Below are positions 4,208 to 18,303 of a stretch of DNA of 31,719 nt, one piece after another. The stretch is from a virus. Below the pieces are notes generated by a model. It did not search any database, was not told where the DNA came from, and worked only from the letters and a program-made list of their open reading frames with translations. The stretch's first letter is position 1. Each line of letters begins with the position of its first letter. The position numbers and the translations under genes are program-made. The stretch is taken from IMG/VR virus record IMGVR_UViG_3300042939_000222, positions 1 to 31,719 of that record. One strand, written 5' to 3'.

Positions 4208-4522
4208 ATGCCTCAAGTTGCTCGTTCTTCTGGTGTTGATACAGTGTCTTCTCCTCACGGCACTGGTAAAAACTGTCTTTTTCCTACAACACAAGCTACT
4301 GCTGAAGGAGTTTCTAAGGTTTATGTAGAAAGCATACTAGCAATCCATATTGGTAATGCGATGCAAGTACATCCAGCTCCAGGATGTACTCCTCATGCTC
4401 CTGGTTTAGATTCTGCGTCCAACAAAGTCTTGTGTGAAGGATTGGGTATTGCTAGAGTTGGTGATACTTACGGAGGAGAACACATTATAACATCAGGATC
4501 GTCTAAAGTTTTTTCCGGATAA
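4208..4522 (+). CDS. PAAR-domain spike tip protein (gp5.4-like)
   Basis: A 104-residue protein of the PAAR family, which in T4 (gp5.4) and in type VI secretion caps the needle with a sharp, metal-stabilised cone. The sequence is rich in Gly and Pro turns and ends with a typical PAAR close (GDTYGGEHIITSGSSKVFSG). H17, H47, H55, C60, H63 and H92 include the likely zinc ligands; the cluster HPAPGCTPH is notable. It starts one base after the gp5 stop, consistent with joint production of needle and tip. Because gp5 here carries an extra C-terminal domain, how the cap sits on the needle is an open structural question. No effector domain is fused. Confidence 0.85.
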   Translation: MPQVARSSGVDTVSSPHGTGKNCLFPTTQATAEGVSKVYVESILAIHIGNAMQVHPAPGCTPHAPGLDSASNKVLCEGLGIARVGDTYGGEHIITSGSSKVFSG

Positions 4523-4928: not shown

Positions 4929-6733
4929 TGGCTAACAATAAAATAAACATTTCAGATTTAGATTTTGATCTAATCAAGACTAATTTAAAAGAGTTTTTGA
5001 AGACTCAAGATCAATTTACTGACTATGATTTTGAGGGTTCGGGTCTAAATGTTCTTTTAGACGTATTAGCGTATAACACGCACTACAATGCGATGTATAC
5101 GAATTTAGCTATAAACGAAATGTTCTTGGATTCAGCAAGTAAGCGTGACAGCGTTGTTTCAATTGCGAATAATTATGGGTATCTTCCAGTATCACGAAAA
5201 GCTTCAAAAGCCACTATTTCGATGACAGTTCCAATTGGAAGTAACACCACTTCTACATTGTCTCTTCCCAAGTTTAGTCCATTTACATCTATAGTGTCAG
5301 GCACAGAATATAATTTCTACACTCTTTCAGAAAACATAGGAATTAGAAATCAATCGTTGCTACGCTATGAGTTTTCTTCAGTCGACATTTACGAAGGCAA
5401 ACCAGTTGTTGAAAAGTTTAGTTATCTTGAAAACACAAAGGTAATTTTACAAAACGAAAACATTGATACTTCGACTATAAGAGTTACAGTAAATGATCCA
5501 AGTTCTCTAAATACTTCAGTCTATAAGTATGTTGAAAAGATTATTGATCTCAATTCTTCAAGTGAAGTTTTCTTTATTCGCGAAATTGAAGATCAACAAT
5601 ATCACATATACTTTGGCAAAAACAATCTTGGCAAAGAACCAGCTGTAGGATCTGTCATAACTGTTGATTATATAGTGACAAATGGTTCTGTTGCAAATGG
5701 AGTGAAGTTATTTAATTACGCTGGAACAAGTTATGGCTCAACTCCAACCATCACTGTTACTGCTACAGCCTCTGGTGGAAGAGAAGCAGAAACAGTCGAT
5801 GAAATTAAGTATAACGTTTCTCACAAATATAAAATTCAAGATAGAGCTGTTACGATTGGCGATTATGTAGATATCATAAAAACAAATTATGCAGATATAG
5901 ATACGATAAGTTGCTGGGGAGGAGACACAATGACTCCTCCAGTGTACGGCAAAGTTTATATTTGTATTAAGCCTCAGTCAAGTTTGTTTTTGACTCAGTC
6001 AGATAAGAACTCTATCATTGAAGATATCGTTAAGCCAAAATCAATCATTGGAATTTCTCCAGTCATGGTTGATCCGATTTACAATACAGTTGAATTACAA
6101 ACTTCGGCGTATTACAATCCAAACTTAACAAACAAATCGTCTTCTCAGATACAGCAAGCTGTTCGTCAGTCAATCATCGATTATAATGAAAACAACTTAC
6201 AAAAGTTTGATGGGATATTGCGTTATTCGCGATTAATAAGAGATATAGACGATGCTGATACGTCTATCATAAATAATATTACGACAGTTACACTTCGTAG
6301 AATAGTAGATGTAGTTTTTAACTTATCAACTTCATATACGATTCAATTAAATAATCCTGTTTATAAGTCAGGTGTTGCTGAAGAATCCGTATTGACAAAT
6401 GGATTCTATGTTACAGGAGATATCATACATTATATAGACGATGATGGTGTGGGAAATCTAAGACTGTTCTATTATAACCCTCTTGATTTTACAAAAGTTT
6501 TTGTAAATAGTAAAATAGGAACAGTGAATTATGACACTGGTGAAATTAAACTTAATTCGTTGTATGTGGGCGGAGTCGTAGAATCAGATTTTGAGTTAAT
6601 CATTAAACCTCAGTCAAACGATATTATTGGTAAGTTTAATCAGATCGTGAACATAAGTGAATCGTTATTGAAGATAAACGTAATTCAAGAAACTAATAGT
6701 ACTAACCACGTAATCTCGTCTAGTAGAACATAA
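4928..6733 (+). CDS. 6: Baseplate wedge protein gp6
   Basis: A 601-residue protein close in length to T4 gp6 (660), which makes the ring that holds the baseplate wedges together. The N-terminus (DLDFDLIKTNLKEFLKTQ, then LDVLAYNTHYNAMYTNLAINE) is characteristic of gp6 in marine T4-like phages. Residues about 215-245 carry the Baseplate_J pattern FIREIEDQQYHIYFGKNNLG. The C-terminal half has the gp6 dimerisation-type region with a long helix-rich stretch (SSSQIQQAVRQSIIDYNENN). The gene starts in a TAATG overlap with gp25 and ends in a TAATG overlap with the next gene. No sign of truncation. Confidence 0.92.
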   Translation: MANNKINISDLDFDLIKTNLKEFLKTQDQFTDYDFEGSGLNVLLDVLAYNTHYNAMYTNLAINEMFLDSASKRDSVVSIANNYGYLPVSRKASKATISMTVPIGSNTTSTLSLPKFSPFTSIVSGTEYNFYTLSENIGIRNQSLLRYEFSSVDIYEGKPVVEKFSYLENTKVILQNENIDTSTIRVTVNDPSSLNTSVYKYVEKIIDLNSSSEVFFIREIEDQQYHIYFGKNNLGKEPAVGSVITVDYIVTNGSVANGVKLFNYAGTSYGSTPTITVTATASGGREAETVDEIKYNVSHKYKIQDRAVTIGDYVDIIKTNYADIDTISCWGGDTMTPPVYGKVYICIKPQSSLFLTQSDKNSIIEDIVKPKSIIGISPVMVDPIYNTVELQTSAYYNPNLTNKSSSQIQQAVRQSIIDYNENNLQKFDGILRYSRLIRDIDDADTSIINNITTVTLRRIVDVVFNLSTSYTIQLNNPVYKSGVAEESVLTNGFYVTGDIIHYIDDDGVGNLRLFYYNPLDFTKVFVNSKIGTVNYDTGEIKLNSLYVGGVVESDFELIIKPQSNDIIGKFNQIVNISESLLKINVIQETNSTNHVISSSRT

Positions 6734-9700
6734 TGCAAAAGACGCCAATAGCAATAGCTTTAGAAAGACAAATCCCTGAGTACATAAGGGGAGAATACGA
6801 GCTATTTGTTGATTTTATCAAAGCGTACTACGAATTTCTCGATCAAACTCAACAGAGAAATCTTGAAGACATACGCTCTATTGAAAATACGCTCGATGAA
6901 TTTATCATTCGATTTAAAAAAGAACTATCGGTTCTATTCCCAACTAATAGTTTAGAAAACGAAAGATTTATACTTCAAAGAATACGTGAATTCTACCAAG
7001 CTAGAGGCTCTAAAGAATCTTTCCAATTCTTATTCAAGATCTTATTCAATAAAGAGTCAGACATTTTCTATCCGTCAACACAAATACTCAGAGCTTCAGA
7101 TGGAAAGTGGATCGAAGAAAAATCAGTATTTGTAAAATCTACGTCGGGTAATTTGTTTGAATTGAGTGGTAAGAATATAACCATTCAGACGAGCAAAAAG
7201 AAAATTAGTGTATTCTGTCCTCGCGTTGTTCTTTATAAAAACGACATATACGAAGTCTTTATTAATCGCTCATACATTCAAGACATCTCTGTTGGAGACA
7301 CTGTTTCTTCAGAAGACGAGTTGAATTATGGTGAAATATTGCCTTGCCCTAACAAGTACACTATCACTACAAAGGGTTCTGGTTTTGAAGTAGGTCAACT
7401 CTATTATTTAAAAACAGAAAGAGGCGATGGGTCGTTAATAAAAATAACAAAAATTGGAACTGGCGGATCTATAGAAAAGGTACAAGTCATTAGCTTTGGA
7501 CTTGACTATGATTCTACTTTCTATGCAAAGCTTAGCAATAAACAAGCAGTTGCATTACCTTACTATCATCCTGTTACTTCTATAAATGGAAGCACGCCAA
7601 CTCCTCCGTATCCAGATGGTAATAACGGATTTATAGATTATGGTTACATAAACAGACAAGATTATTTCTACTTCGATAAGTTTTACACTCCTTCTGTTTC
7701 AAATGATCAAAATGTATTTTATGCAGATGGTACGTATGTCGGTGAGATAATAGGATCGTTCTATACTAATGCATCAAACACTAATGTTATAGATGTAGAT
7801 ACAGCAGAAATAAAAATTCAACTAGGCGCGGTCGCAGTATATCCTGGATATTACGAAACATCAGACGGATTTATTTCTGACGAATCTTATATCCAAGACG
7901 GAAGATATTATCAGCTATTTTCATATGTCATTAAAGTAGAACAGCAAGTAGATTCTTACCGTGATATCGTAAAAGCATTACTGCACCCCGCAGGTATGGA
8001 GTTATTTGCTGAATATACGATTAAAAATAATTATCTAGTTTCAGCAGCGCCTCTGTTAGCTTTTATTCGTCGTCAATTTTTAGATCAGCAGTTTGTCACC
8101 GATGACGATGGAACTAACTCAGTTCTTAAAGTAGTGCCATCGAGTGAATCAACTTCTATAGCAATTCACAATTTCTTAGAAGACATTAAGAATGTACAAC
8201 TGAAGATTCAAAAGTATTCTCCAGAAGGAGATTTAATGGGCGAAACAGATCAACGACGTTGGTCTACTGTCGACCCAATTATCTTTAATCTCTACGATAT
8301 GAGTAAGGGATCAGCACTTGATCCAATTGAGAATAGTATTCCTGTAGCATATCATTCTGGTTCTGAAGACGTAAAAGACTCAATTGTGTTAGTTAGAAGA
8401 TATGATTCAAGTGGTAATCTCACTGCAGAAACAGATCAACGACGTTGGTCTGTTGTTGATCATGAAGCCATTATCACCAATAAAGATAATACACTTTTAA
8501 TTAGACGCTATGATTCTAGTGGCAACTTAACATCAGAAACAGATCAGCGTCGCTGGTCTGTCGTAAACCATACTGATGGAATAACAAATAAAGATAGCAT
8601 TTTATCAATTAGAAAATATGACTCTTCTGGTAATCTAACTGGAGAGACAGACCAGCGCAGATGGTCTACTGTTGATCCAGTAAATGATGCTCACTTTTTC
8701 TCGTTTCAATCTATTGAAAATGGAACTTTTTATAAAATTGTAGTTCCAGTTGAAACTGATTCGAAGTCTACGACAGTGTTTATTAGACGCTATGATTCTG
8801 ATGGTAATTTAACATCAGAAACAGATCAACGTCGTTGGTCATTTGTTATTCCAGTAAATGCAGGTCACGATTTTGCGTTTACTTCTGAAGATGGTGGAGC
8901 GTTTTTCAAAACAACTTCTACTACCGACGCACAGCAGAAAACCACTACAGTATTAATCAGAAAATATGACTCTTCTGGTAATCTAACTAATGAAACTGAT
9001 CAGCGCCGATGGTCAACTGTTAATTCTGTTGATCTTTATGTTCTTGATCCACTGATTACGCCAGAAAAACTAATTACTCTCCCATTAGGACGAAGAAATT
9101 CTACTGACACAGCTAATATAAACGATGGATTGACTACACGTTGGACTATAGCAATATCTACTGATGAAGCAGGCGCAGCGCCTGGCCAAGTTGGATTCGT
9201 TAGAACAGTTACATATGATAGATCGATAATTCCTCTAGTTTCTTTAGATCCAGTTGTTGCGTCAGATACATTTGTTCCAACACCAGAATTCCCGCATGAA
9301 AGAAGTACAGTTTTTTCAATTCCTAACACTACGTCTTTATTTACTGCAGTAGATTCTCTTCCAATAATAGGTACAGAATTTCAGCGCGCTCCAGATTTAA
9401 CTTTTACAGGAAATATTACTGCAGGTAGTAGTTTAGTTACTTTAGTAGGGAAATCCACAGGCGGTATACAAATTGGTAGAATTTTAACAAAAGTATCTGG
9501 TGCTGGTTCACTTGGTGCTGGAACTGTACGTGTTAATTCTGTAGATTCAGAAACGACATTTAGTATGAATATCAATGCTTCTGTAACAGGAAGCATAACA
9601 TTCATAATTATCGGCGAAACGCCCGAGTTAGCTGATGTACTTTCTTCTCCAATCGATTCATTCCCAAATGGATTGTCTCCTACTGAAAGCAATCCTAACG

Positions 9701-9924
9701 CAAAATTTACATTATTTGGAGCTTCTTGGCGCGACACATCAGGCACAAGTGATTCATATAGTCAAGTAAACACATATGATAGACGTCCAGAAGAGTTTAT
9801 AAATAACAGTAATATCGGAACATTGTACTTTAATGTGTACAGTCAAGATACTTCGAATCCACTTAGCTCATATTCATATGAAGCTGAATCATATTCGGAG
9901 CGCATCACTAGATCTCTTTCTTAA
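6733..9924 (+). CDS. 7: Baseplate wedge protein gp7-like with ETDQRRWS repeat array
   Basis: A 1063-residue protein following gp6. Residues 1-120 (YELFVDFIKAYYEFLDQ, then FYQARGSKESFQFLFKILFN) and 409-428 (DIVKALLHPAGMELFAEY) resemble, from memory, the C-terminal part of T4 gp7, which grips gp8 and the wedge core. The N-terminal half of T4 gp7 is absent. From residue 494 to about 763 there are six copies of a unit with pattern R-[RK]-Y-D-S-x-G-N-L-T-x-ETDQRRWS; the first copy is diverged (YSPEGDLMG) but keeps ETDQRRWS. The rest (770-1063) is beta-rich, with a motif LTFTGNITAGSSLVTLVG, and I do not recognise it. Position and N-terminal match support a wedge role; the repeat region likely projects outward and its function is unknown. 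Confidence 0.72.
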   Translation: MQKTPIAIALERQIPEYIRGEYELFVDFIKAYYEFLDQTQQRNLEDIRSIENTLDEFIIRFKKELSVLFPTNSLENERFILQRIREFYQARGSKESFQFLFKILFNKESDIFYPSTQILRASDGKWIEEKSVFVKSTSGNLFELSGKNITIQTSKKKISVFCPRVVLYKNDIYEVFINRSYIQDISVGDTVSSEDELNYGEILPCPNKYTITTKGSGFEVGQLYYLKTERGDGSLIKITKIGTGGSIEKVQVISFGLDYDSTFYAKLSNKQAVALPYYHPVTSINGSTPTPPYPDGNNGFIDYGYINRQDYFYFDKFYTPSVSNDQNVFYADGTYVGEIIGSFYTNASNTNVIDVDTAEIKIQLGAVAVYPGYYETSDGFISDESYIQDGRYYQLFSYVIKVEQQVDSYRDIVKALLHPAGMELFAEYTIKNNYLVSAAPLLAFIRRQFLDQQFVTDDDGTNSVLKVVPSSESTSIAIHNFLEDIKNVQLKIQKYSPEGDLMGETDQRRWSTVDPIIFNLYDMSKGSALDPIENSIPVAYHSGSEDVKDSIVLVRRYDSSGNLTAETDQRRWSVVDHEAIITNKDNTLLIRRYDSSGNLTSETDQRRWSVVNHTDGITNKDSILSIRKYDSSGNLTGETDQRRWSTVDPVNDAHFFSFQSIENGTFYKIVVPVETDSKSTTVFIRRYDSDGNLTSETDQRRWSFVIPVNAGHDFAFTSEDGGAFFKTTSTTDAQQKTTTVLIRKYDSSGNLTNETDQRRWSTVNSVDLYVLDPLITPEKLITLPLGRRNSTDTANINDGLTTRWTIAISTDEAGAAPGQVGFVRTVTYDRSIIPLVSLDPVVASDTFVPTPEFPHERSTVFSIPNTTSLFTAVDSLPIIGTEFQRAPDLTFTGNITAGSSLVTLVGKSTGGIQIGRILTKVSGAGSLGAGTVRVNSVDSETTFSMNINASVTGSITFIIIGETPELADVLSSPIDSFPNGLSPTESNPNAKFTLFGASWRDTSGTSDSYSQVNTYDRRPEEFINNSNIGTLYFNVYSQDTSNPLSSYSYEAESYSERITRSLS
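8212..9021 (+). repeat. Six protein-level repeats with invariant ETDQRRWS in gp7
   Basis: Units begin at about 8212, 8395, 8503, 8611, 8785 and 8959. ETDQRRWS is identical in all six at protein level while codons vary: the Arg-Arg pair reads CGA CGT, CGA CGT, CGT CGC, CGC AGA, CGT CGT and CGC CGA. Units 2 to 4 are spaced by 36 residues and units 4 to 6 by 58 residues, with similar linkers inside each class. Confidence 0.93.
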
Positions 9925-9938
9925 TAAAGGTAAAAAAC

Positions 9939-10448
9939 ATGATTACAATTCCAAAATTCTCTAATTTTATCGAATTAGGCGGAACTCTTTCAATCGCTCA
10001 CTATGGGCTTAATGGCGAGTTGATTGAAGATCGCTTTTATTCTAACATCGTTACTACTGCTGGTAAACAGTGGATTGCACAACGTATGAAAGACGGCGGC
10101 ATCCCAGTTCAAATGACTCACATGGCAATTGGCGGAAATGCAACTGTTGGATCAAATCCTGCAAAGACTACTCCTCAAGTTGGAGACCCTGCTCTTAGCA
10201 CTGGTGGCAGTCCTGCTCTTTCAGAACTAGCACGTGTTGGTTTGACTACAGCTGGTGGCAGTGTTTCTGGTGCTGTTGTTACATATGCAGCAACATTCGC
10301 TGCAGGCACAGGCACTGGATCTCTTGTTGAAGCTGGTATTTTTAACGCAGCTACAGGACCACTTATGCTTTGCAAAACTTCTTTTGATGTTGTTAACAAA
10401 GCGGCTAATGACTCGATTTCCATCACATGGACTGTAACTATTCAGTAA
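9939..10448 (+). CDS. Conserved phage structural protein, baseplate or fiber associated
   Basis: This 169-residue protein lies between gp7 and gp8. It has a pattern common in small tail-associated proteins of many tailed phages: an N-terminal NIVTTAGKQWIAQRM, then MTHMAIGG, a central ELARVGL, and a C-terminal LVEAGIFNAATGPLMLCKTSF followed by a strand ending SITWTVTI. The family is beta-rich and often found next to fiber genes; its molecular role is not established to my knowledge. A clear Shine-Dalgarno (AAAGG, 9926-9930) precedes the ATG by eight bases, so it is probably strongly translated. T4 has no gene at this place, so it appears to be an insertion in the wedge operon. Confidence 0.7.
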   Translation: MITIPKFSNFIELGGTLSIAHYGLNGELIEDRFYSNIVTTAGKQWIAQRMKDGGIPVQMTHMAIGGNATVGSNPAKTTPQVGDPALSTGGSPALSELARVGLTTAGGSVSGAVVTYAATFAAGTGTGSLVEAGIFNAATGPLMLCKTSFDVVNKAANDSISITWTVTIQ

Positions 10449-12717: not shown

Positions 12718-15700
12718 ATGGCACTAAATTTCAATATTGAACCGTTTTTCGACGACTATTCTGAAAACAAGAAATTCTATAGAATTTTATTTCGTCCTGG
12801 TTATGCTGTTCAAGCACGAGAGCTAACACAGCTTCAAACAATACTACAGCAACAAATTAAGCGTCATGGCGACCATATGTTCAAAAATGGTGCTATGATT
12901 ATTCCAGGTCAAATCTCATATGATTCAAATACTGCATATGTAAAAGTTGGTGCTACAATTTCTGGATCATCAGTTAGTACGTTTTCGGTACTATCGAACG
13001 TAAATGGAAAAATATATAGAGGTCAGACTTCTAATGTTGAAGCTCTTGTTCTTACTTCCACTCCTCTCGAAGTAATTAATAATACCAGTGAAGCCAATAC
13101 ATTATTTGTCAAATACATACGTGGAACTGGCACATTTAACACAGGTGAAATCATTTCTCCAGTTGATGGATCGACTGGGTTAGACTTAACTGTACAAAGT
13201 ACTGATTCACCTTTAGGTTATGGTACTACAGCTACAATACAAGAAGGCGTTTATTATATCAAAAACCATTTTGTGTTTGTTGAAGCACAGACAATTGTAG
13301 TTGCGAAATATAGTAAAATCCCAAGCGCTAAAGTTGGTCTTCAAGTTAATGAAAGTGTTGTATATCCCGAAGACGACGAAAGTTTATTAGATAATGCTTT
13401 AGGATCTCCAAATTATGCAGCTCCTGGTGCTGCACGTTATTCTATTGAATTGAAACTAACAAGTAAAAGCTATGATTCTACTGTAGATGCAGATGAATTC
13501 ATTACACTTCTTACACTGAAAGAAGGCGATGTACAATTCTTAGTTGATAAAACACAATACGCCGAATTAGAGAAAACTCTTGCTCGAAGAACCTACGATG
13601 AATCGGGTGATTACACTGTACGAGATTTTCCTATAGAATTGCGTGAATATCGCAACAATGATAGAGGCGCTTGGACTGCAGCAAAGTATTATCTCAAAGG
13701 AGATATTGTTACTAATGCGAGTAAGACATACAAAGCTAAGTCATCGCATACGTCTAGCGCAGCGTTTGCCACAGACACGAACAATTGGTTAGAAGATACA
13801 AGTCCTTCATATAACTATGGACTATATCAAGGTCCTACTGCAATTGCAACTGGTGTAACAGCAGAGAACATTTCAGATCTGACCACGAAAGTTTCACTCG
13901 CTATTGAGCCTGGTAAAGCGTATGTTCGTGGATATGAAATCGAAAAAATAGTTACTCAATATTTGACTCTCGATAAAGCACGAACAACTTCAAATTACGA
14001 ATTAAGAAGTGTTGATACTAGTCCTGGCAATTATATTATTATTAAAAACACAAATTATCTACCAGACATTAACACAGACGTCACATTCTATGATAGATAC
14101 GGCAGTGCAGGCCAAGTACCTGCATCTGGTGAAATAGTCGCAACAGCTCGTATAAAACAAATACAATTACACTCGTCTGATACGAGTGGAAATCCTGTAA
14201 GTTACAAAGTATTCCTATTTAGACTTATTGTTAGTTCTGGTAAAGATTTTACTAGAGATGCAAAATACTTATACTCAATTACTGGTAATAGTGCGGCAAA
14301 TAGATTTAGCGGAAGAATAGTTCCAACTCTAATTCAGTTAACTGGATCTCTTGCGGCTTCAAGTACAGGTACAATAACAGGCGTTAATACAACCTTTACA
14401 CAAGATTTAAAAGTTGGAGACTATGTTTCTATAAATTCAACTGAGTATAGAGTAACTACAGTAACTGATAATGATACTATTGTTATCGATGGTACACCAA
14501 CTATTAGTGCAGGCACTTTTATTTACAGAGTAGCTGCAACAATCAATAGTCCAAATAGATTGACGTCTTATTTCGAATTCCCCGCTTATGCCGTAAAAAG
14601 TACTCAGAATGCTAAGTATTCTTTTTATAAGAGATACCAAACATCTAGCGGAGCATCGACAGCAACTCTGACAGAAACCTCATATGTTTTTGGTGTTCAA
14701 ACTGATTCTCGCAATTATATAGTTATCAATAAAGCCGACGGAACACATCAAAAATATATCTCTACTGGAACGCCTAGTGCTGGTGAATATAAAATTTCTG
14801 GTGATGGAACAGCCAATGTTACGTTTACATTTGGTGCTGCGTCTACATACGAAATAATTGCAAATTTACGTAGAACAAACACAGCATCATTACTTAAGCG
14901 TACTAAAACTCTTAAGAATAATACAGAAACAAACAAAGCACTTACAAACGGCGCATTGACTTTAGCGTTTGCGGATGGATTCGAACTAATTTCTGTTACT
15001 ACTGGAACTTTTGCAAATAACACTTGGACAGCTAGTGCTGATGTAACATCAAAATTTAGATTTGACAATGGCGTTCGCAGTTCTCACTACGAATTAGCTT
15101 CAATATCATTACTTCCAGGACAAAGTATTACTGGAAATATTCAAGTCACTTATAGTTATTTTGAACAAGGCACTTCTAATGATTTCTATGTAGTTGACTC
15201 TTATCAAGATATAACTTACGAAGAATTGCCAGCTGATAGAGCGAATATACTTGATTTTCGTCCTGTGATTGATACATCAGGACAATTTTCGTCTATCATA
15301 ACTCCAAAGTTTGGAGAAGAGACCGATATTGAGTATGATTATTATCTCCCACGAATTGATAAACTTTCTATTACAACAACCGGCGATTATATCATTACAA
15401 AAGGTATTCCCGGTGTAAATCCTAAAGTTCCAGAATCTCCAAATGATTCAATGGACCTCTACACGTTTAGTGTAGAACCTTATACATTCAGTGGCAATGC
15501 TTCAAGCGTAATTCCTTCGAAGATAGAAAATAAACGCTACACAATGCGAGATATTGGCAAGTTAGAAAATCGCATTAATAATTTGGAGTACTACGCCACT
15601 CTATCTCTATTAGAGCAAAACACGATTAACTATAAAGCGTATGATGACTTTGGTTTAGAGCGTCCTCAGAATGGTTTTATAGTAGATGACTTCACTGGTC

Positions 15701-18303
15701 AAGGTGTTGGAAATGTTCTATCAGCAGACTGGAGAGCTTCGGTTGATAGTAGATCTGGCGAACTTAGACCATTCTTCAAAACCGCGAATATTGCTCTATT
15801 AGAAAAAACGACTAATTTTAATAGAACAAACTTAAATTACGAAGTTAATGGAGACTTAGCAACTCTTAAAATTGCAAGCAAAGTTCCTTTAGTATCTCAA
15901 CTTCGTGCTTCACATAACGAATCAGTCAATCCATTTAATATATTCGTATTCAATGGAAGCTTAGAAATCATCCCTTGGAACGATGATTGGATCGAAGTTA
16001 ACCGCCGACCAGACATCGTTATAAATGATACTAAACAGTACGATGCTGTAGTGGCAAAAGCAGAAGCTGACGGTGTTCTTGGAACAGTTTATAAATCTTG
16101 GTCTATTAACTGGGGCGGTGAGACTGTAGTGTCTAGTCAAACCCTCTCTGCTGATCGTCGTTTTGGCGACGGAGGATCTGCTCTCGATGCTGAGTTTGGA
16201 ATAGGACCTGAAGCAGAAGGTTGGGCGTTTAGACAGATAGGAGTTGAAACTGTTGCTCGAAATGGTACTAAGACTTACACTGGTGGCACAAGCACGTTTA
16301 TTAAGTCAACTGTTACTGACACGACAATTGGCGATAAAGTAGTTAGTACAGAACTAATTCCGTATATCCGTAAGCGCAAAATCTTATTTAGAGGCGAGAG
16401 TCTAAAACCAAATACCAGAATATATGCTTTCTTTGATGATATAAACGTTGATAGCCACATTACTCCTGCTAAGAAGATGGCTTTTGTTCCACGCGGAACT
16501 ACTGTTGTACCTACGTTTGAAATTGACATTAATGTAGGTTCAAACGTCAATAATGCCGAACGTAAGACTTCAGATGGAAATATTTCAACGGCTTACTTAT
16601 ACGGCGAAGTTTTAAAAGAGTATAGAATTGATGTATCAGTTACTCCGAATATAACAACTGCTACAGGCGCTTCGTGCGTAGTAGTAGGACAAGAGACTTA
16701 CGGTGGCACTAATTATGTTTATATTGACAATTTAAAAGGTCCAGCATTTTCAAGCGATACTACTCAGTATCAATATTATTTGGAAGCTGAATTTAATTCA
16801 GCGCGACAAATTAAAAAAGTTGGAAGTGTAATTACACCTTCTCAGTTAATGACAACTGACACTGGTCAATTACTTGGAACTTTCGATATTCCTAGTACGA
16901 CACAGATGCGCTTTAGAACTGGAACCCGTAATCTTCGCTTTACAGATGATGTTGCTAACATACGTTCAAATTCTTCAACTTCTGCTGAAGCAACATATAC
17001 TGCTAGAGGTGTTTTAGAAACTCGTGAAAGAACTATTCTTTCAACTAAGACAGCTGAAGTTGTTACAGAAAGAATTCCTGATAGAACTGAAGCGATTGTT
17101 GAAACAAGACGCCGCGTTGTTTCTGACACTGGTTGGTATGATCCATTAGCGCAAACATTCTTAGTGGATTTAGAAGGTGGAGCTTTTGTCACTGATGTTG
17201 ATTTATATTTCTCAGCAAAAGATACTAATGTTCCTGTAAAGATACATATTCGAAATGTTGTCAATGGTTATCCAGGACCTTCTATCGTTCCATTCTCTGA
17301 AGTAATATTACAACCAAGCGAAGTAAACACGAGTGCTAATGGCACAGTGGTGACTAAATTTAAATTTAGAAGTCCAGTTTATCTACAAAATGGTAGTGAG
17401 TATGCTTTAGTTATTATCTCTGATTCTGCAAAATATCGTGTTTGGATTGCACAATCCGGTTCTCTCGATATAAATGGATCTGGATTAATTTCTACTCAAC
17501 CATATGCTGGTGTATTGTTTAAATCTCAAAACGCATCAACATGGACAGCTGAGCAAAATCAAGACTTAAAGTTTGTCATCAATAGAGCAGTATTTAATAC
17601 AGGCAGCACTGCAACAATGACACTAGTAAATCAACACGTAAGTGAAGATTTCAATTATGATCTTGCAAACGTTAATGTGAATAGAATAGTTCTTCCTGAT
17701 ACTCAGCTAACTGCAAAACTTTCATATAATAGTTCATCTAGCACTATTAACTTGAATGAAGATGTTCTACTAACTTCACCACGTGTGCTTAAAGACAGTG
17801 TTGAAGAAGCCGGAACTTCATCATTTCAATCCGTTATTGAGTTTTCTTCAAGTAGAAGCAATATCTCTCCAGTGATCGATCTAAGTCGTTGTTCAGCTGT
17901 GTTAGTGGGTAACTCAATAAGTCTAGATGAAACGAATGAAATATATCCTGAAAGAGGAAGTGCACTTGCGAAATACGTGACAAAGCTCATTAGACTGAAT
18001 ACTCCTTCAACAAATCTTCGTATATTGTTCGATGCGAACGTTCCAAACGAAGGCTTCATTGATTTGTACTATAGAACTGGTTTGCAATCGAGCGATTTCT
18101 CTTCATCTAATTACACAAAAATTACTTCAGCTTTCTATGCTAAGCCAGTAAGAAAGACTGATAAATATCGTCAGTTCTTTGAAGTAGAAGCTAAACTAGA
18201 TCTACCACAGTTTGATATTATGCAAGCAAAGATTGTTCTAAGATCGAGCAATACATCTAAAGTTCCACGTGTTAAAGCGCTGAGAGTTATAGCGTATGCA
18301 TAA
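12718..18303 (+). CDS. DUF4815 baseplate/tail structural protein (positional counterpart of gp10)
   Basis: At 1861 residues this is the largest complete protein here. Its start (NFNIEPFFDDY, then FRPGYAVQARELTQLQTILQ and GDHMFKNGAMIIPGQ) is the DUF4815 signature found in marine T4-like phages. Residues about 318-362 resemble a CBM5/12-like module (aromatic-rich YYLKGDIVTNASKTYKAKSS, ending NNWLED). Residues about 540-610 form a small beta domain (GTITGVNTTFTQDLKVGDYV). Residues about 1472-1600 (DPLAQTFLVDLEGGAFVTDV, then VNGYPGPSIVPFSEV and VYLQNGSEYALVI) form a conserved beta sandwich. It follows gp8, where T4 has gp9 and gp10, so it may connect wedges to fibers. The family match is firm; the exact role is inferred. 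A weak AAGAG lies before the ATG. Confidence 0.8.
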   Translation: MALNFNIEPFFDDYSENKKFYRILFRPGYAVQARELTQLQTILQQQIKRHGDHMFKNGAMIIPGQISYDSNTAYVKVGATISGSSVSTFSVLSNVNGKIYRGQTSNVEALVLTSTPLEVINNTSEANTLFVKYIRGTGTFNTGEIISPVDGSTGLDLTVQSTDSPLGYGTTATIQEGVYYIKNHFVFVEAQTIVVAKYSKIPSAKVGLQVNESVVYPEDDESLLDNALGSPNYAAPGAARYSIELKLTSKSYDSTVDADEFITLLTLKEGDVQFLVDKTQYAELEKTLARRTYDESGDYTVRDFPIELREYRNNDRGAWTAAKYYLKGDIVTNASKTYKAKSSHTSSAAFATDTNNWLEDTSPSYNYGLYQGPTAIATGVTAENISDLTTKVSLAIEPGKAYVRGYEIEKIVTQYLTLDKARTTSNYELRSVDTSPGNYIIIKNTNYLPDINTDVTFYDRYGSAGQVPASGEIVATARIKQIQLHSSDTSGNPVSYKVFLFRLIVSSGKDFTRDAKYLYSITGNSAANRFSGRIVPTLIQLTGSLAASSTGTITGVNTTFTQDLKVGDYVSINSTEYRVTTVTDNDTIVIDGTPTISAGTFIYRVAATINSPNRLTSYFEFPAYAVKSTQNAKYSFYKRYQTSSGASTATLTETSYVFGVQTDSRNYIVINKADGTHQKYISTGTPSAGEYKISGDGTANVTFTFGAASTYEIIANLRRTNTASLLKRTKTLKNNTETNKALTNGALTLAFADGFELISVTTGTFANNTWTASADVTSKFRFDNGVRSSHYELASISLLPGQSITGNIQVTYSYFEQGTSNDFYVVDSYQDITYEELPADRANILDFRPVIDTSGQFSSIITPKFGEETDIEYDYYLPRIDKLSITTTGDYIITKGIPGVNPKVPESPNDSMDLYTFSVEPYTFSGNASSVIPSKIENKRYTMRDIGKLENRINNLEYYATLSLLEQNTINYKAYDDFGLERPQNGFIVDDFTGQGVGNVLSADWRASVDSRSGELRPFFKTANIALLEKTTNFNRTNLNYEVNGDLATLKIASKVPLVSQLRASHNESVNPFNIFVFNGSLEIIPWNDDWIEVNRRPDIVINDTKQYDAVVAKAEADGVLGTVYKSWSINWGGETVVSSQTLSADRRFGDGGSALDAEFGIGPEAEGWAFRQIGVETVARNGTKTYTGGTSTFIKSTVTDTTIGDKVVSTELIPYIRKRKILFRGESLKPNTRIYAFFDDINVDSHITPAKKMAFVPRGTTVVPTFEIDINVGSNVNNAERKTSDGNISTAYLYGEVLKEYRIDVSVTPNITTATGASCVVVGQETYGGTNYVYIDNLKGPAFSSDTTQYQYYLEAEFNSARQIKKVGSVITPSQLMTTDTGQLLGTFDIPSTTQMRFRTGTRNLRFTDDVANIRSNSSTSAEATYTARGVLETRERTILSTKTAEVVTERIPDRTEAIVETRRRVVSDTGWYDPLAQTFLVDLEGGAFVTDVDLYFSAKDTNVPVKIHIRNVVNGYPGPSIVPFSEVILQPSEVNTSANGTVVTKFKFRSPVYLQNGSEYALVIISDSAKYRVWIAQSGSLDINGSGLISTQPYAGVLFKSQNASTWTAEQNQDLKFVINRAVFNTGSTATMTLVNQHVSEDFNYDLANVNVNRIVLPDTQLTAKLSYNSSSSTINLNEDVLLTSPRVLKDSVEEAGTSSFQSVIEFSSSRSNISPVIDLSRCSAVLVGNSISLDETNEIYPERGSALAKYVTKLIRLNTPSTNLRILFDANVPNEGFIDLYYRTGLQSSDFSSSNYTKITSAFYAKPVRKTDKYRQFFEVEAKLDLPQFDIMQAKIVLRSSNTSKVPRVKALRVIAYA

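Follow-up and report, generated by a model that had tools for sequence, protein, structure and literature searches.

In T4, gp7 is a monomer of the baseplate wedge that touches gp6, gp8, gp9 and gp10 (PMC3004832). In Vibrio phage XM1, tail spikes have been shown to attach to flexible regions of gp17, the gp7 orthologue, among them a C-terminus of ~40 residues beyond the core (PMC10457771). In AlgoCIS, the peripheral gp7-like part of Alg12 is exposed, binds tail fibres and has been termed an evolutionary hotspot (PMC8894135). It was already known that gp7 is highly divergent among T4-like phages (PMC3037559), and the gp7 of phage P-HM1 is annotated with 4446 aa, with an HPAG motif at residue 2639; large variable extensions of gp7 are therefore familiar. 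Pelagimyophages and cyanomyophages have been said to lack T4 gp7, with VrlC apparently in its stead (PMC7029224).

Here we consider a 31,719-nt window, the whole of a 31.7-kb record of an uncultured T4-like phage, whose nearest named relatives by gp6 include Pelagibacter phage Mosig and the Methylophilales Melnitz phages, both placed under Kyanoviridae. What is new in this locus is an array of short modules on gp7. We know of no repeat array in T4 gp7 itself.

A gp7 counterpart with a conserved core and a variable tail

The protein that bears the array is a 1063-aa ORF with the following parts:

6733..9924, + strand: T4 gp7-like baseplate wedge protein, 1063 aa (PHROG 17744, Pfam PF23786, core profile against PDB, gene order)
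6733..8022, + strand: conserved wedge core, residues 1-430, ending just past the HPAG motif (identity, dN/dS)
8023..9921, + strand: hypervariable, module-built C-terminal tail (tail length, module content, raised dN)
9397..9609, + strand: beta-rich domain, ~residues 889-959 (AlphaFold strands, block-mean pLDDT 36-71)
9799..9921, + strand: conserved C-terminal end, INNxNxGTLYxNxYxQ...YSYEAETYS (sequence conservation)

Both PHROGs and Pfam label the ORF a baseplate wedge protein. A core profile built from 11 orthologues found two T4-type gp7 sequences as its two best matches in PDB (E 0.0012 and 0.0039), bearing out the initial annotation, which had taken the ORF for gp7. Annotation gives the gene order as gp25, gp6, the 1063-aa ORF, a small ORF and gp8. 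The ORF thus shares with T4 gp7 (PDB 5HX2, 5IV5; Klebsiella phage gp7, 9F4A) its place between gp6 and gp8, and the core profile matches residues 725-764 of gp7, after which the HPxG region comes in the same order in both. The two differ in that ~140 aa follow HPxG in T4 gp7, as against 640 aa of variable modules here. The best Foldseek match, obtained with a poor model (E 0.0096), came from 9f4a, which contains Klebsiella phage gp7, and was a chain of 1031 residues. Taken together, sequence profile and gene order identify the ORF as the predicted counterpart of T4 gp7.

Several neighbouring ORFs are of interest in their own right. The small ORF that separates the gp7-like and gp8-like ORFs (9939-10448, 169 aa) weakly resembles the N-terminal domain of a tail-collar fibre protein (PF12571, below cut-off); it also follows gp7 in L013, and it might be an adaptor. 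A PAAR-motif protein (4208-4522, PHROG 281) adjoins the gp5-like lysozyme ORF and is likely the spike tip. The ORF at 12718-18303 resembles the baseplate protein VrlC of P-SSM7. Given that a gp7-profile ORF and a VrlC-like ORF occur in one genome, the two coexist at least in this group, in contrast to the statement that VrlC appears to replace gp7 (PMC7029224). ARAGORN found no tRNA in the loci of five relatives.

Tail modules among relatives

Scans of IMG/VR yielded about 15 distinct orthologues of the gp7-like ORF. They have the core in common (71-100% identical in 11 orthologues), but their tails, of 276-701 aa, contain different modules in different numbers. The variable region is wider than the initial annotation had it, taking in everything past ~residue 430 (nt ~8020-9921). 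Different lineages have amplified different modules from a common vocabulary. The array of the studied protein recurs in L001 (a 95% relative) and L002, and a similar one with a sequence of its own is found in L003 and L004. This second array reads mostly RKYDxNQVDTGETDxxRWS; it retains YD and ETDxxRWS but has mostly lost G-N-L. L005 and L013 have unit 1 only. L025, L026, L027 and L029 are without the ETDxxRWS unit and instead have the repeat modules YHxxxxDIKD and KGSAxDPIENSL, of which the studied protein has two copies and one copy, respectively. The tail is just 276 aa in L018 and L019. A segment related to the beta-rich domain is present in the tails of L003, L013, L027 and L030 and missing from L029. 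In the six records searched, tail modules are confined to the gp7 ORF.

Two further observations concern individual relatives. In L020, L021, L023 and L024, an inserted segment of ~150 aa resembling NAGSFVIGRSYKIVSVGTTDFISIGATSN...FVATGVGSGTGTA splits the place of unit 1, and a similar insertion lies in the core of L005; the segment looks like a mobile domain. The gp7 frame of L004 is broken near its N-terminus (~2732-2820) and that of the near-identical L003 is intact; the break could be an assembly error.

The array is not a general trait of gp7, given that two or more ETDxxRWS units occur only in the studied virus, L001, L002, L003 and L004. Among annotated phages (GenBank phage records) the array had no match below E 0.2, nor was the L026-type array found there. 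The remark that no described T4-like gp7 carries such an array thus agrees with the collection searched, in which named phages lack it. A scan of genome contigs for a bacterial source of the unit returned one match, in a 41-codon frame, which is probably due to chance.

A parallel is UTS51997.1 of Synechococcus phage BUCT-ZZ01 (L047:2989-4812), where a tandem array likewise begins right after HPAG in the ORF following gp6. Its ~20-aa repeat, FTKxRSDTQGLSDDKDY, has no detectable relation to the ETDQRRWS array and no match in other phage records of the collection. The presence of an unrelated array at the same place suggests that post-HPAG arrays probably arose more than once.

The repeat array

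The array proved real as first described, with six copies of ETDQRRWS in the ORF, five of them inside R[RK]YDSxGNLT. The copies begin at residues 504, 566, 602, 638, 696 and 754 (nt 8242 to 9015). The units are as follows, with units 2-6 assigned by DNA repeat family, motif and codon comparison:

8200..8274, + strand: unit 1 (ancestral), LKIQKYSPEGDLMGETDQRRWSTVD, 72-76% identical to the sole unit of L005 and L013
8386..8460, + strand: unit 2, VLVRRYDSSGNLTAETDQRRWSVVD, with RRYDSSGNLT
8494..8568, + strand: unit 3, LLIRRYDSSGNLTSETDQRRWSVVN, with RRYDSSGNLT
8602..8676, + strand: unit 4, LSIRKYDSSGNLTGETDQRRWSTVD, with RKYDSSGNLT
8776..8850, + strand: unit 5, VFIRRYDSDGNLTSETDQRRWSFVI, with RRYDSDGNLT
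8950..9024, + strand: unit 6, VLIRKYDSSGNLTNETDQRRWSTVN, with RKYDSSGNLT

At the DNA level they are six 79-nt copies of one direct repeat (8201-9029), with start-to-start distances of 186, 108, 108, 174 and 174 nt. In the protein, unit starts are 36-62 aa apart and the linkers between them are unrelated. None of 500 shuffles of the protein repeated any 8-mer, as against six copies in the real protein, which rules out a chance origin.

Unit 1 is shared with L005 and L013, which have no array, and it is without YD. This makes amplification of a segment native to gp7 the most likely origin of the array. Units 2-6 cluster by genome and unit 1 by position (identity within genomes 72%, between genomes 57%; permutation P 0.004). 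The core tree leaves both a single origin and separate origins of the studied and L003 arrays compatible with the data.

Rates of change and exchange between units

The tail changes its amino acids faster than the core. In five close pairs, dN/dS is 0.01-0.04 in the core and 0.16-0.41 in the tail, and in four of the five silent divergence (dS) is similar in the two parts. In the fifth pair, L025/L026, the cores do not differ at all and the first differences coincide with the start of the modules, which points to recombination there. A tail dN/dS below 1 fits both relaxed constraint and adaptation.

Codons differ among the copies, and the initial annotation took this to mean that the peptide is under selection rather than newly copied. 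The first part holds. Among units 2-6, pS is 0.35-0.87 and dN 0.11-0.29, and across three lineages seven unit positions (Y, E, T, D, R, W and S) are invariant despite near-saturated silent sites, which argues that the unit itself is under selection. The contrast with recent copying fares less well, because comparison with L001 suggests continuing exchange between units. Of 23 unit differences between the studied virus and L001, 19 match a base present in another unit, in a test whose null ignores amino-acid constraint and whose P value overstates exchange. Better evidence comes from two codons that have been replaced at all three bases by the codon of a sister unit. The copies are therefore old, and yet appear to trade sequence.

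Structure prediction adds little detail. Mean AlphaFold pLDDT was 35.0 for the whole protein and 37.2 for units 2-4, and these poor models were used for secondary structure only. Strand pairs are seen at most units in both low-confidence models, which fits a hairpin fold. The conserved core was itself modelled unevenly, with N-terminal helices also below pLDDT 50, so that low confidence does not show disorder; it stems at least partly from a shallow alignment.

These rates and models bear on the idea that the tail acts as a flexible spacer under little constraint: recombination would duplicate and delete modules almost neutrally, and function would lie in the core and the C-terminal end alone. 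The raised tail dN/dS agrees with relaxed constraint, and both the spread of tail lengths and low model confidence throughout the tail are in keeping with a spacer. However, invariance of ETDxxRWS and the Y in all units of three lineages is hard to reconcile with near-neutrality, and the low confidence shared by the conserved core takes away the sign of disorder. We consider a spacer possible but unlikely.

Resemblance to Rhs/YD repeats

The array had been interpreted initially as an Rhs/YD array grafted onto gp7, an idea that we reject after comparison with Pfam, NCBIfam, control genomes, PDB sequences and the L003 array. Units 2-6 do share the YDxxGNL turn motif with Rhs/YD repeats (PF05593, TIGR01643), and the studied protein exceeds the cut-offs of both RHS_repeat (total 23.9 bits, cut-off 22) and YD_repeat_2x (29.6 bits, cut-off 15.8), as does that of L001. 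If these totals were taken at face value, a true Rhs/YD-repeat segment could have been acquired and then fused to gp7. However, no single stretch reaches either cut-off alone, and the totals sum several partial matches below threshold. Each unit matches 12-17 of the 38 positions of the RHS_repeat model, and the match to YD_repeat_2x covers 14 of 42, with no full-length match to the Rhs repeat model. The homologous L003 array matches neither model. Rhs repeats are closely packed, whereas the units here start 36-62 aa apart with unrelated linkers. A permissive RHS_repeat search also gave matches in 8 of 14 control genomes, two of them above cut-off. No Rhs core family matched, and a sequence search of PDB found no Rhs structure; it did return two entries named 'Toxin', 7y79 (E 0.023) and 7y78 (E 0.068), which we take as chance matches of a repetitive query.

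Acquisition of a true Rhs segment is thus highly improbable. The best explanation for the likeness is that a tight-turn hairpin motif, of a common kind, arose within gp7. More generally, a protein with a short array of YD-turn units can exceed the cut-offs of Rhs families and yet not be an Rhs protein.

A putative attachment surface at the baseplate rim

Because XM1 gp17 and the gp7-like part of Alg12 offer precedents and the tail here is variable, we infer a docking surface for adhesins, and the suggestion that the array could be a docking site for fibres is the best supported of the functions first proposed, chiefly by analogy. The first ~430 residues are the conserved wedge core and the remainder a fast-evolving tail of short modules, which in this scenario would lie on the outside. 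One ancestral module of ~25 aa, probably a beta-hairpin, has multiplied in this lineage to give the array, and exchange between copies appears to keep the units partly alike. The tail would project from the baseplate rim and give tail fibres or spikes a place to attach, and the type and number of modules would shift as the adhesins change. We give this combination of a conserved core and an adhesin-attaching tail about an even chance of being right.

The analogies have their limits. Like the studied protein, XM1 gp17 is a gp7-type wedge protein whose flexible C-terminus extends past the core, but that C-terminus is short, as against more than 600 residues of putative docking surface here. Alg12 belongs to a different injection system, and its gp7-like part is built of domains rather than short amplified modules. 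Several fibre-like ORFs lie downstream of the gp7-like ORF. Comparison of the adjoining small ORF and gp8 identified no co-varying partner, both varying less than the tail.

Alternatively, the array itself might touch the surface of the host, perhaps through a sugar-binding patch, and change in step with host receptors. No part of the protein varies more than the tail, as would be expected of a receptor-facing surface, and an identical motif repeated several times would suit multivalent weak binding. On the other hand, the repeated motif is the conserved part rather than the variable part, family profile searches found no carbohydrate-binding family, and the fibre-like ORFs in the window could serve for host contact instead. 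Direct contact is therefore rather improbable in our judgement. A more specific form of adhesin attachment, which we regard as slightly more doubtful still, is a ladder of interchangeable docking hairpins, in which each ETDxxRWS unit would hold one putative adhesin and recombination between units would set the number and type of fibres on each wedge.

From the perspective of baseplate evolution, gp7 is a wedge protein usually deemed structural, and here its tail changes by module duplication and exchange, with the core nearly fixed. If the tail holds fibres, as we suspect, aquatic T4-like phages could retool adhesin attachment while leaving the wedge untouched.
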